Positions 16,098 to 27,801 of a DNA stretch of 64,000 nucleotides are shown here, piece by piece. Both the position numbers and the translations under genes were made by a program. Position 1 is the stretch's first letter. The number at the start of each line of letters is the position of its first letter. The notes under the pieces were generated by a model that saw nothing but the letters and a program-made list of their open reading frames with translations, was not told the DNA's origin and did not search any database. The stretch lies in NCBI GenBank assembly GCA_024636975.1, contig JAGXGA010000047.1, forward strand, positions 1 to 64,000, given 5' to 3'. This DNA comes from Mariniphaga sp. (GTDB lineage: Bacteria; Bacteroidota; Bacteroidia; Bacteroidales; Prolixibacteraceae).

Positions 16098-16822
16098 GGC
16101 ATGTTGCTATGGTCTGGGATACTAACCCCAGCATTTATGCTGGGGCAAAGCATCAGGCACACCCCCCGATCCTCCTGTTACGCAACCTATAGGTGACCCC
16201 AGCATGAGAGCAGGGGTTAGAGGATTATGCGGCAGCTTTAATGGGCTTAAGCCCGGGAGAGGGGGGGTGGGTAACCTGTCTGACCCCCCCAGCATAAATG
16301 CTGGGGTTAGTGCCAGTCTTTGATACACAATCTACCACATAATTAATCGCATTACCTTGTTTATCAGCTATTATCATGTTCTTTTAAACAACCAGAGCCT
16401 ATGCAGTGAATAATGAGCCCGGGAGACACTGGTTCATGCTCATTCTGAACCCCAGCTTAAAAGCTGGGGTTAGTGACTGCTGCAGTAGCGTTGTAGGGCT
16501 AAAGTCCGGAAGAGGGGGATGGCTGATCTGGCTGAATCTTCAGCTTGAAAGCTGGGGTTAGTAACTGCTTCGGCAGCAGTGCCATTGCCATTAGCAGTTA
16601 TCGGCATGTTGCTATAGTCTGGGATACTAACCCCAGCATTTATGCTGGGGCAAAGCATCAGGCACATCCCCCGATCCTCCTGTTACGCAACCTATAGGTG
16701 ACCCCCAGCATGAGAGCAGGGGTTAGAGGATTATGCGGCAGCTGTAATGGGCTTAAGCCCAGGAGAAGGGGGGTGGGTAACCTGTCTGAACCCCCCAGCT
16801 TAAAAGCTGGGGTTATTGACTG
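16098..16822. repeat. REP-like palindrome array with ~190-bp direct duplication (16098-16315 and 16603-16822)
   Basis: CCCCAGCATTTATGCTGGGG, CCCCAGCATAAATGCTGGGG, CCCCAGCTTAAAAGCTGGGG palindromes; near-identical long copies offset by ~505 bp. Confidence 0.85.
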
Positions 16823-16928
16823 CTGCAGTAGCTTTGTAGAGCCCGGTAATAAATTTATTTTAAAATTAGAAAAGGCTACCGTTGAAAAACAACGACAGCC
16901 TTTTTTTGTGCATGTGAGATATATTGAA

Positions 16929-23296: not shown

Positions 23297-23562
23297 GTTT
23301 TAATATTTCAAGGTTTGCCTTTGTAATTCTTTCTGCGAATTGTTTCGTGCATGCTAAATAGTTAGTTGTCACCATTTTCCGACCATATTACCCCTTGTAT
23401 CTAATCCGGTTATAATGTTTATTCCATTATCTTCCGGCGAAGCCAGCGGTTATTTGTATTAAATATACAATAGCTGCATAATGTTATTGTTTCTTTTTCT
23501 TAATCTCCAATCAATCAATGCTATAAATGACTTAATAACGGGTCAGAGTTTTTCAAATGTGA

Positions 23563-23595
23563 GAATTATGTAATTCTTAAACTGAATTATGTAAC
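23563..23595 (+). promoter_or_regulatory. Direct repeat site 8 (GAATTATGTAAT-N9-GAATTATGTAAC); -7-like TAATTTTA at 23617-23624
   Basis: Upstream of frameshifted CsbD-like gene. Confidence 0.83.
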
Positions 23596-23659
23596 ATTTT
23601 CCCAACTCATTTAAAGTAATTTTATATTGATAATTGAATTTTCATAAAATTACAATAAA

Positions 23660-23844
23660 ATGGAAAAAAATTTGATATAAACCAGTGGGGATACATAAAG
23701 GATAAACTCCAGGATATGTATCCGAAGCTAACCAATGCTGATTTGCATTGGGGACGTGTATCAAGAAATGATTTGTTGGAAATGATTTCCATCAAATTAG
23801 GGAAAACACAGAAACAATTAAATGATGCAATAGAATCATTTTGA
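23660..23844 (+). pseudogene. CsbD-like stress protein, frameshifted in poly-A tract
   Basis: ATG-G-A7 then out-of-frame KFDINQWGYIKDKLQDMYPKLTNADLHWGRVSRNDLLEMISIKLGKTQKQLNDAIESF, aligning with intact ORF at 25180. Confidence 0.8.
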
Positions 23845-23867: not shown

Positions 23868-24434
23868 ATGATTAACTCATGTAATAAAATGAATAACAAA
23901 ATGGAAACTCCAAAAAAAATAAAAAACTCAAGGGCTTTTGGAAAAAAAGTATTTATGCGTATTGGGATATCTACCGATTTTGGCTGGTTTGAATTAAAAC
24001 GAAAACTGATAGAGTCCCTTAACGCTTTTGGTTATGAACTGGTTGACATTGAAGACTATGAATTGGTTCCGGGTGAAAACTACCCCGATTTTGTTGTACC
24101 ACTGGCAAAAGCGGTTTCTGATGGAAATTACAAATATAACCGTACACATTGGTTAAATTGTATTGAAGCTTGCGCTGAGGTGAATAAAATCCCAGGTGTT
24201 TGTGCAGCCGTAATTACCGAACCAACTGCCCCTGGTTTGGAAACCGGGAATGAAGATGTGTATGTCAGGTGTTTCGGGGGGCAGATAAAAGGATATGCAT
24301 TATCAAAAAAGAAAGTACTTACTTTTCTTAATGCTGATTGTCCAACCAATATACCATCCAATCAACAACTTGCGAAGGTAAGGATGTTAAAAAGAGAAAA
24401 CAAGGCACTACCAGAAGAACAGTACCTGGTTTAA
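23868..24434 (+). CDS. Divergent RpiB/LacAB-family sugar-phosphate isomerase-like protein
   Basis: MRIGISTDFGWFELKRKLIESLNAFGYELVDIEDYELVPGENYPDFVVPLAKAV...NKIPGVCAAVITEP. Confidence 0.7.
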   Translation: MINSCNKMNNKMETPKKIKNSRAFGKKVFMRIGISTDFGWFELKRKLIESLNAFGYELVDIEDYELVPGENYPDFVVPLAKAVSDGNYKYNRTHWLNCIEACAEVNKIPGVCAAVITEPTAPGLETGNEDVYVRCFGGQIKGYALSKKKVLTFLNADCPTNIPSNQQLAKVRMLKRENKALPEEQYLV

Positions 24435-24473
24435 TTTTTAATGTAATATTTCGGCAGGCAGCCTGGAATGTGT

Positions 24474-24506
24474 GAATGATGTAACTCTTAATCTGAATTG
24501 TGTAAC
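24474..24506 (+). promoter_or_regulatory. Direct repeat site 9 (GAATGATGTAAC-N9-GAATTGTGTAAC); -7 TACCTTTG at 24528-24535
   Basis: Perfect TAnnTTTG at 21 bp. Confidence 0.88.
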
Positions 24507-24663
24507 TGCCAGGAGAGTTTTGTCCCGTACCTTTGCCGGTGCTTCCGGTGGATATAGTTTCAGTTGGATTTCCCGCATTCAGTGCGACCGACATATTTTT
24601 CCATTAGCAGCATTTATCGTACTACACCAGAATCTTTAAAAAAAAATCACTATACAATTAAAA

Positions 24664-25176
24664 ATGAACAATTTTATGAAAAAACGAATTTTAACTTTTA
24701 TCCTTGTTATTGCATCAGGTATTGCATTTGCACAAAGCCCTATTTCAAAAGGCGAGTCGCAGGTAAATTTTGGTGTTGGGCTTTCATCATGGGGCGTTCC
24801 CGTATACCTGGGATTCGATTATGGAGTTCACCCCGATATTACCCTGGGGGCAGAAGCATCATACCGTTCGTACAACGACAACTGGCGCGATAACAGGTAC
24901 AATCATTCGGTTATCGGTTTACAGGGGAATGCAAATTATCATTTTAACAGGGTTTTAAATATTCCTTCACCCTGGGATTTTTATGCAGGGCTAAACCTTG
25001 GCTTTTACAGCTGGAATTCACCAAACGATTACGAGGGTTCGCACAACTCGGGACTTGGGCTTGGCGGACAAATTGGTGGCAGGTACTATTTTAGCAACAA
25101 AGTAGGCGTTAATTTGGAATTTGGCGGCGGCAATGCCTTTTCTGGTGGAAAATTAGGTATCACTATAAAATTATAA
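24664..25176 (+). CDS. Outer membrane beta-barrel protein
   Basis: Signal peptide MKKRILTFILVIASGIAFAQ and barrel strands. Confidence 0.75.
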   Translation: MNNFMKKRILTFILVIASGIAFAQSPISKGESQVNFGVGLSSWGVPVYLGFDYGVHPDITLGAEASYRSYNDNWRDNRYNHSVIGLQGNANYHFNRVLNIPSPWDFYAGLNLGFYSWNSPNDYEGSHNSGLGLGGQIGGRYYFSNKVGVNLEFGGGNAFSGGKLGITIKL

Positions 25177-25480: not shown

Positions 25481-25825
25481 TTGGAAGGTACTACTCATAA
25501 TGCTTTGGAAGCGCATGCACTGGATGAATTGGGCCTTAATGAAATATCCAGGGCAAAACCTTTGCAGGCTGCCTTTGCATCTGCAATTTCTTTTATAGTG
25601 GGCGGAATATTTCCTCTTTTGATTTCAATTTTTGCTCCATTAAGTCAAATGATATACTTCCAATATGGGTTCTCCATTTTATTTCTTGCTTTATCCGGAA
25701 CTATTGCAGCAAAGGTTGGGGGTTCGATAATCAGCAAATCTGTGTTAAGAATTTGTATCTGGGGAACCATTGCAATGGTAATGTCAGCATTGATTGGATA
25801 TCTGTTTGGAGTTAGCATAAATTAG
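25481..25825 (+). pseudogene. C-terminal remnant of VIT1/CCC1-family transporter
   Basis: NALEAHALDELGLNEISRAKPLQAAFASAISFIVGGIFPLLI; N-terminal half absent and upstream frame broken. Confidence 0.7.
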
Positions 25826-25854
25826 GTTTTTAATATTTATTATCTGACGAAAAA

Positions 25855-26742
25855 ATGAATTTCATCGATTATTACAAAATATTAGGGATAGACAAACATG
25901 CCACTGCAAGCGACATTAAAAAGGCCTACCGCAAACAGGCCAGGAAATATCACCCCGATTTGAATCCCAACGATGCAGATGCGAAAAAGAACTTTTAGTT
26001 AATCAATGAAGCCAATGAAGTACTTCATGACCCTGAAAAACGAAAGAAATACGACAAATACGGGAAAGACTGGCAACATGCTGAACAATTTGAAAATGCA
26101 AAACAGTATCAGAAACAATCTTCAGATTTTAGTGGCCAAAATTATTCCCGGGCACAATCCGGCAATGATTTTTCCGATTTCTTCGAATCCATGTTTGGTG
26201 GTTCAGCAAATGCCGGCAGAAGCAGGCAGGTAAAATTCAGAGGCGAGGATTATTACGCGCAATTTCAGCTCAACCTTACAGATGCTTATAAAACCCACAA
26301 ACAAACCCTTTCTGTAAATGGCAAAAACATAAGAATAACCATTCCTGCCGGAATTGAAAACGGGCAAACCATTAAAATTGCAGGACACGGGGGTCCGGGA
26401 ATAAATGGCGGACCGAACGGTGATTTGTATATTACATTTTCAATAGCAAACCATCCCGGCATAAAAAGACTGGGAAATGATTTATATACACATGTCGATT
26501 TAGAATTATACACAGCGGTGTTGGGTGGCGAAATAATCCTCGATACCCTGAGCGGAAAAGTGAAACTGAAAGTAAAGCCAGAAACGCAAAATGGAAGCAA
26601 GGTAAAACTCAAAGAGAAAGGATTTCCTGTTTATAAAAAGGATGGGCAATTCGGAGACTTATACGTAACCTATACAGTTAAAATCCCAACTCATTTAACC
26701 GATAGGCAAAAAAGCTTATTTACTGAGTTATCAAAATCTTAA
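25855..26742 (+). pseudogene. cbpA: CbpA/DnaJ-family co-chaperone interrupted by one in-frame TAG (25996-25998)
   Basis: [69 protein letters not shown]...; C-terminal DnaJ domain in the same frame. Confidence 0.88.
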
Positions 26743-27100: not shown

Positions 27101-27625
27101 ATGCAAACCAATAACGGAAAAGAGATTGAACAAGCCAGTAAAGCCTCGCTCGAAGTGCTGCTTCACAATGCCCGTGGACCGTATCATGGTTTGCCCCGAA
27201 CAGCAGGTTGGGGATATCCCGAACCTTACACACGGGATTTAATGATCTCCATTCTGGGATAGCCCGTTTCCGGAAATCAAAAATTGCTTTACAGCATTCG
27301 CAAAGTGTTGGAAACACTGGCAAAAAACCAAACCGAACGTGGCCATATTCCTTCGCTGGTGCAGGACAACGATGATCGTGGTGCCAGTGATACCACTCCC
27401 CTGTTTTGCTGGCAACCGGCATATTCAGAAAACATACAGGTGAATTTGATTTCCTCGCTGAGGCAGTTGAAAAATCATTGATTTGGATGAGCTAACAAAG
27501 TCCTTCAGACCGGTTTTTAATTGCACAACAACCCACCAGCGACTGGCGTAACGAACAATGGCTAACCGGTACGGATTGTTTGTAAATACACTCGCTTACA
27601 GTGACCTCAGAATGCCTTTATTAAT
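27101..27625 (+). pseudogene. Glycogen-debranching/MGH1-type glycosidase remnant with in-frame TAG (27260-27262) and later frameshifts
   Basis: ASLEVLLHNARGPYHGLPRTAGWGYPEPYTRDLMISILG*PVSGNQKLLYSIRKVLETLAKNQTERGHIPSLVQDNDDRGASDTTPLF...IAQQPTSDWRNEQWLTG. Confidence 0.8.
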
Positions 27626-27801
27626 TTCATGAATATTCTGAAAGATTTCAGACAATGGTTGAAAGCTGAAAGAAACAGGCATAAAAGAAGAAAAGTCTAT
27701 CAAGAATCCGCTACTTTCTTGACTTTTCACTAATTTTTTCGCATCAAAAAAAACAATTCCCGATTGACTTTTCATAAAGTGAAATTTTTGAATTAATGTG
27801 T

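Follow-up and report, generated by a model that had tools for sequence, protein, structure and literature searches.

Background

RpiB enzymes, including those of E. coli (2VVR) and C. thermocellum (3PH3/3HE8), are recognized by Cys66 and its anion-hole loop, together with His10, His99/Asn100 and Arg133/Arg137 (E. coli numbering is used throughout). In RpiB from Leishmania the substitutions C69S, H102N and D45N each singly abolish activity, and Glu75 is quoted as an alternative base in the M. tuberculosis enzyme (PMC4783025). In galactose-6-phosphate isomerase, LacA/LacB, each active site draws residues from both subunits (PMC3755991). A further intact clade, from the Prolixibacteraceae, is referred to here as the phosphoketolase type; this is a clade label, a phosphoketolase having been seen beside RpiB in L004, L077, L078, L082 and the viral contig L102. 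The intact RpiB of L004 (2539-3045) is flanked by a phosphoketolase and a class I aldolase, as named from their sequences. The substrate of this clade, in which position 99 is Asp, may differ from that of E. coli RpiB.

The stretch of DNA analysed, hereafter the window, comprises 64,000 nucleotides from Mariniphaga sp. and carries a gene that, judged from its sequence, is an RpiB duplicate with its active site lost, found in one environmental family of Bacteroidota. No earlier description of an RpiB pseudoenzyme was found in the open-access literature, and a dead RpiB that is kept would add to the known cases in which metabolic folds have been repurposed.

An RpiB homologue outside the enzyme families

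The gene lies in an open frame of 188 codons (23868-24434, + strand). Met12, at 23901, is probably the start, as it aligns with the start of relatives, and the frame stops at 24434. The coding features are as follows.

23901..24434, + strand: predicted non-catalytic RpiB homologue (the variant), 177 codons from Met12, the probable start; the frame opens at 23868
23976..23987, + strand: codons for DFGW replacing DHGG, by alignment
24150..24167, + strand: codons for WLNCIE replacing the catalytic CGSGVG, by gapless alignment

The RpiB pattern that a sequence-only reading had recognized in this frame is confirmed by profile search, the variant matching Pfam LacAB_rpiB (PF02502) at E=3.9e-14 with 53.2 bits against a curated cut-off of 24.7, which places it in the superfamily. 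The closest solved structures are RpiB enzymes, with homology over residues 28-158. The NCBIfam cut-offs for RpiB and RpiB/LacA/LacB are all missed (46.6 against 135, 36.4 against 88.3, and 30.8 against 138.65, the last being the rpiB cut-off); the intact paralogue P0002 clears PRK05571 and TIGR00689 and falls short of TIGR01120. AlphaFold models of the variant and of an intact control were both poor (mean pLDDT 55 and 48), and a fold search gave zero matches at E <= 0.001; with the control no better, these results carry no weight either way on the fold.

Loss of both halves of the active site

The variant was compared with 14 intact phosphoketolase-type relatives, 13 other homologues and an E. 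coli RpiB reference row. His10 and Cys66 are present in the E. coli protein and in every one of these 14 relatives and 13 homologues. Alignment to the intact relatives upholds the earlier assertion that DHGG has become DFGW, and the underlying changes, H10F and G12W, occur in all four full copies of the variant. At the position of Cys66 these copies have W, W, W and R, the copy in the window placing Trp where the catalytic Cys would be. Glycines 67 and 71 of the loop, which belong to the anion hole, are changed, as are the positions of His99/Asn100 and Asn103, and no member has His at 99. Five members could be read at the phosphate arginines of E. coli: position 133 is P, P, P, P and E, and position 137 is Q, R, L, N and C, so that the second Arg is gone in four of the five. 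Asp9, Tyr43 and Pro44 are retained, in common with the E. coli and C. thermocellum enzymes, from which the variant otherwise differs in lacking the catalytic Cys, His10, the ring-opening His and the phosphate arginines. The loss of His99 predates the variant, since in the intact phosphoketolase-type clade this ring-opening residue of E. coli RpiB is already an Asp.

The loop had also been read as shortened. The absence of CGSGVG stands but the shortening does not, because among the full copies only L006 is shorter, by one residue, the other three matching the intact relatives in loop length. The intact L007 loop GEVIRGLAICGSGVGACVAANKVSG and the window loop GNYKYNRTHWLNCIEACAEVNKIPG each have 25 residues and align without gaps, so that the motif has been replaced in place. 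By this comparison the loop arose by in-frame substitution; an origin through a pair of frameshifts was rejected, as the in-frame offset of 0 gives the best DNA identity.

The sequence-only reading had named catalytic Cys or His residues provided elsewhere in the alignment as evidence against its view, and we found none. No His is conserved among the variants, the L004 and L006 copies having no His at all in the aligned region, and the one conserved Cys, Cys73, is ancestral, being present in the nearest intact relatives too. Inspection by eye for a counterpart of Glu75 of the M. tuberculosis enzyme found no conserved Glu among the variants. Read against LacA/LacB (PMC3755991), the variant is without the LacA-type half of the site (His96, Asn97, Arg130, His131, Arg134) and without most of the LacB-type half (His9, Cys65, Thr67). 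With both halves lost it cannot complete the site of a partner, and the candidate role of a LacA-like half-site partner was rejected.

These losses also bear on the suggestion that the protein has become a ligand sensor, still binding a sugar phosphate or related ligand and relaying a signal. In its favour, sugar phosphates are ligands of the fold family, Asp9, Tyr43 and Pro44 persist, and in L004 a CheB gene lies directly upstream of the variant; yet the aromatic residues at positions 10 and 12 in all four full copies and at 66 in three (Arg in the fourth), the missing anion-hole glycines, and the disappearance of Arg133 from every member and of Arg137 from four of five argue against sugar-phosphate sensing. 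The suggestion is thereby weakened, and we consider such a sensor distinctly unlikely.

Distribution and origin

A scan of 84,980 genomes with six exact peptides, from which diverged members could escape, returned three relatives, all from Prolixibacteraceae, at 71, 64 and 54% identity. A search of 140 Prolixibacteraceae genomes recovered three whose protein sequences are identical to these, evidently the ones already found, and added a G392 fragment lying at the end of its contig, bringing the carriers to five genomes of the family, four of them with a full copy. Two genomes from the same genus, G401 and G402, lack the variant, and the homologues read in a 295-genome sample of the order were otherwise intact. 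In the tree, the full copies are monophyletic, all four grouping with 100/100 support within the phosphoketolase-type RpiB (99/93), and the stem leading to them measures 0.70 changes per site. That type, the parent clade, is 37-49% identical to the variant and shares its loop length and CheB company; it differs in its intact DHGG and CGSGVG and in a lower dN/dS (0.05-0.11, against 0.14-0.26 for the variant).

Genome G339, which has the same sequence as L004, carries the intact and variant forms about 3 kb apart, and the presence of intact and dead copies in one genome makes the step from enzyme to non-enzyme directly testable. In the genome from which the window comes, a single intact RpiB, belonging to a different type, lies on another contig, and a search of that genome for phosphoketolase, run without a positive control, gave no match. 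G403, G341 and G339 likewise have an intact RpiB that is of another type.

The presence of these enzymes permits an alternative in which the variant is an inhibitory partner, forming a mixed dimer with an active RpiB in which both sites are dead and so damping pentose isomerization under stress. Because the variant has lost both residue sets of the two-subunit sites, pairing of this kind would silence the active RpiB, and the composite sites of LacAB (PMC3755991) supply a precedent for shared architecture. The closest intact paralogue and likeliest mate, however, occurs in G339 alone among the five carriers, and the housekeeping RpiB is only a distant relative of the variant; we therefore regard inhibition as unlikely.

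Carriage by phage or plasmid was considered and rejected: one viral contig bears an intact RpiB, and plasmid matches all fall below 60% identity. That viral contig (L102, IMG/VR) contains the end of a phosphoketolase gene, the intact RpiB and then phage-like genes, and is probably a prophage beside the cassette. On an Acetobacteraceae plasmid (L103, 3668-8588), a CheB gene lies directly 5' of an RpiB/LacA/LacB gene, an arrangement like that of the Prolixibacteraceae cassette.

Purifying selection on the variant

The frame has been kept in four full orthologues at 53-71% identity. Their dN/dS (NG86) of 0.14-0.26 exceeds the 0.05-0.11 of intact relatives, values that are rough with dS near saturation although their direction is clear, and second codon positions are far more conserved than third in every pair (p about 1e-7 or less). 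Retention of the frame in four orthologues at this dN/dS argues that it is not open by chance, and when neutral change at 20-50% of sites was simulated in a simple way, no more than 3% of copies remained without a stop. By these sequence measures the variant is under purifying selection, weaker than that on the intact enzyme. A frame so constrained, from which the catalytic residues have gone clade-wide, is what characterizes a pseudoenzyme, and the earlier prediction of one is well supported by inference from the catalytic and phosphate-binding losses together with this selection.

Twelve sites are fixed differently between the variants and five intact relatives; coming from four variant sequences, they provide a lead and not a test. 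They could, with a conserved block GGQ(I/V)KGYALS, be the trace of a new enzyme that uses the fold for a different active site and chemistry. Fixed sites among four sequences are weak evidence for this, no His is conserved, and no candidate new site is defined, so that we judge a new enzyme very unlikely.

A shared promoter element

Upstream of the variant lies a repeated element, scored below with a matrix trained on the window, which inflates the values.

23556..23597, + strand: 42-bp promoter element preceding the variant, with two direct repeats at 21-bp spacing, 50.5 bits
23617..23624, + strand: candidate -7 box TAATTTTA, TAnnTTTG-like, 19 bp past the element, at a spacing fixed over 37 element copies
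24467..24508, + strand: next element copy, ahead of an outer-membrane protein gene, 56.3 bits

The element reads AATGTGTGAATGATGTAAC, with a second ATGTAAC repeat 21 bp further on. There are 14 copies in the window, between 5042 and 36735, with similarly inflated scores of 40.9-56.3 bits, whereas the reversed window reaches 11.6 at most. A more independent check comes from the left half of the element, which has 20 matches genome-wide, 14 of them inside the window, against 1 in the control. In Bacteroidota the main sigma factor uses TAnnTTTG as its -7 box. A box of this kind stands 19 bp downstream of 11 of the 14 copies in the window and of 20 of the 23 from relatives; at other offsets from 0 to 59, none reached two copies.

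The element is found 5' of the variant in L005 and, in weaker form, in L006, and 5' of the variant's operon in L004. Many Prolixibacteraceae genomes hold 10-41 copies, often clustered, against 0-3 in the control. With a stricter pattern 16 of the 396 genomes of a phylum sample were positive, the window's own included, with zero control matches, and a few genomes from other families of the phylum also have it. Proteins encoded near its copies include YtxH, M48 peptidase, OmpA, MlaE, CheB, an AI-2E-type permease, PRC-barrel and baeRF. Of the stress promoter proposed for this gene, the shared, repeated element beside genes of stress type is therefore borne out, while the word stress derives from the company of these genes. 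No published counterpart of the 42-bp element or its regulon was found in the open-access literature; the element may be a more novel result than the variant itself, and offers access to what is probably a stress-related regulon, clustered in its genes, of environmental Bacteroidota. At a guess, the 21-bp distance between the repeats would suit a response regulator as activator.

A probable non-catalytic role

As a coding gene kept behind a shared promoter element, the variant probably has a job other than isomerization. The loss of the pocket residues His10, Gly12 and Cys66 to other side chains and of the phosphate arginines speaks against sugar-phosphate sensing, and the loss of both half-sites against completing the site of a partner; what is favoured in their stead is a non-catalytic, partner-binding protein. 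On four full sequences from a single bacterial family, we think it reasonably probable that this RpiB homologue is retained as a protein and either binds a partner or plays a structural part. By sequence it descends, within Prolixibacteraceae, from the phosphoketolase-linked type and has lost each half of the composite site, while its frame is held by purifying selection. The protein may keep the RpiB fold and dimer, with Phe and Trp side chains presumably occupying what was once the sugar-phosphate pocket, and its action while the regulon is active would be to bind its partner or serve structurally, and not to isomerize. Partner binding is our best guess, reached by elimination, and a regulatory role is possible. 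More tentatively, the filled-pocket protein could be a dedicated partner-binding component of a Prolixibacteraceae stress regulon whose activator works on the so far unmatched tandem-repeat element.

Local genomic context and decay

The genes around the variant are in varying states of repair.

23660..23844, + strand: CsbD-like cistron between promoter and variant, its ATG one base out of frame in an A run (three-frame translation)
24664..25176, + strand: beta-barrel outer-membrane protein, encoded next after the variant both here and in L006 (Pfam OMP_b-brl 1.8e-6, slightly short of the cut-off)
25490-25822: VIT gene, first 118 residues missing
25837-26742: dnaJ, in-frame TAG at 25996
27101-27651: glycosidase-like gene with stops and a frameshift

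The CsbD-like cistron is 81% identical to an intact copy in L083 over 58 residues, and its frameshift is possibly an assembly error; the outer-membrane protein is 87% identical in the same L083. Relatives have intact copies of the csbD, VIT, dnaJ and glycosidase-like genes, and their frameshifted, interrupted or truncated state here means that the island may be decaying in this genome. A functionless relic heading for loss would be at home in such surroundings, and would account for a dN/dS above that of the intact relatives and for the absence of the variant from G401 and G402. Amid its broken neighbours the variant's own frame is nonetheless intact; the frame is open in each of the four full copies and purifying selection acts on it, an outcome at odds with the few stop-free copies left by the neutral simulation, and we think a relic improbable. 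Retention as a non-catalytic protein remains the preferred reading of the variant.

Elsewhere in the window, positions 16098-16842 hold a repeat block of CCCCAGCTTAAAAGCTGGGGTTAG-like units, with 94-98% identical duplications about 505 bp apart.
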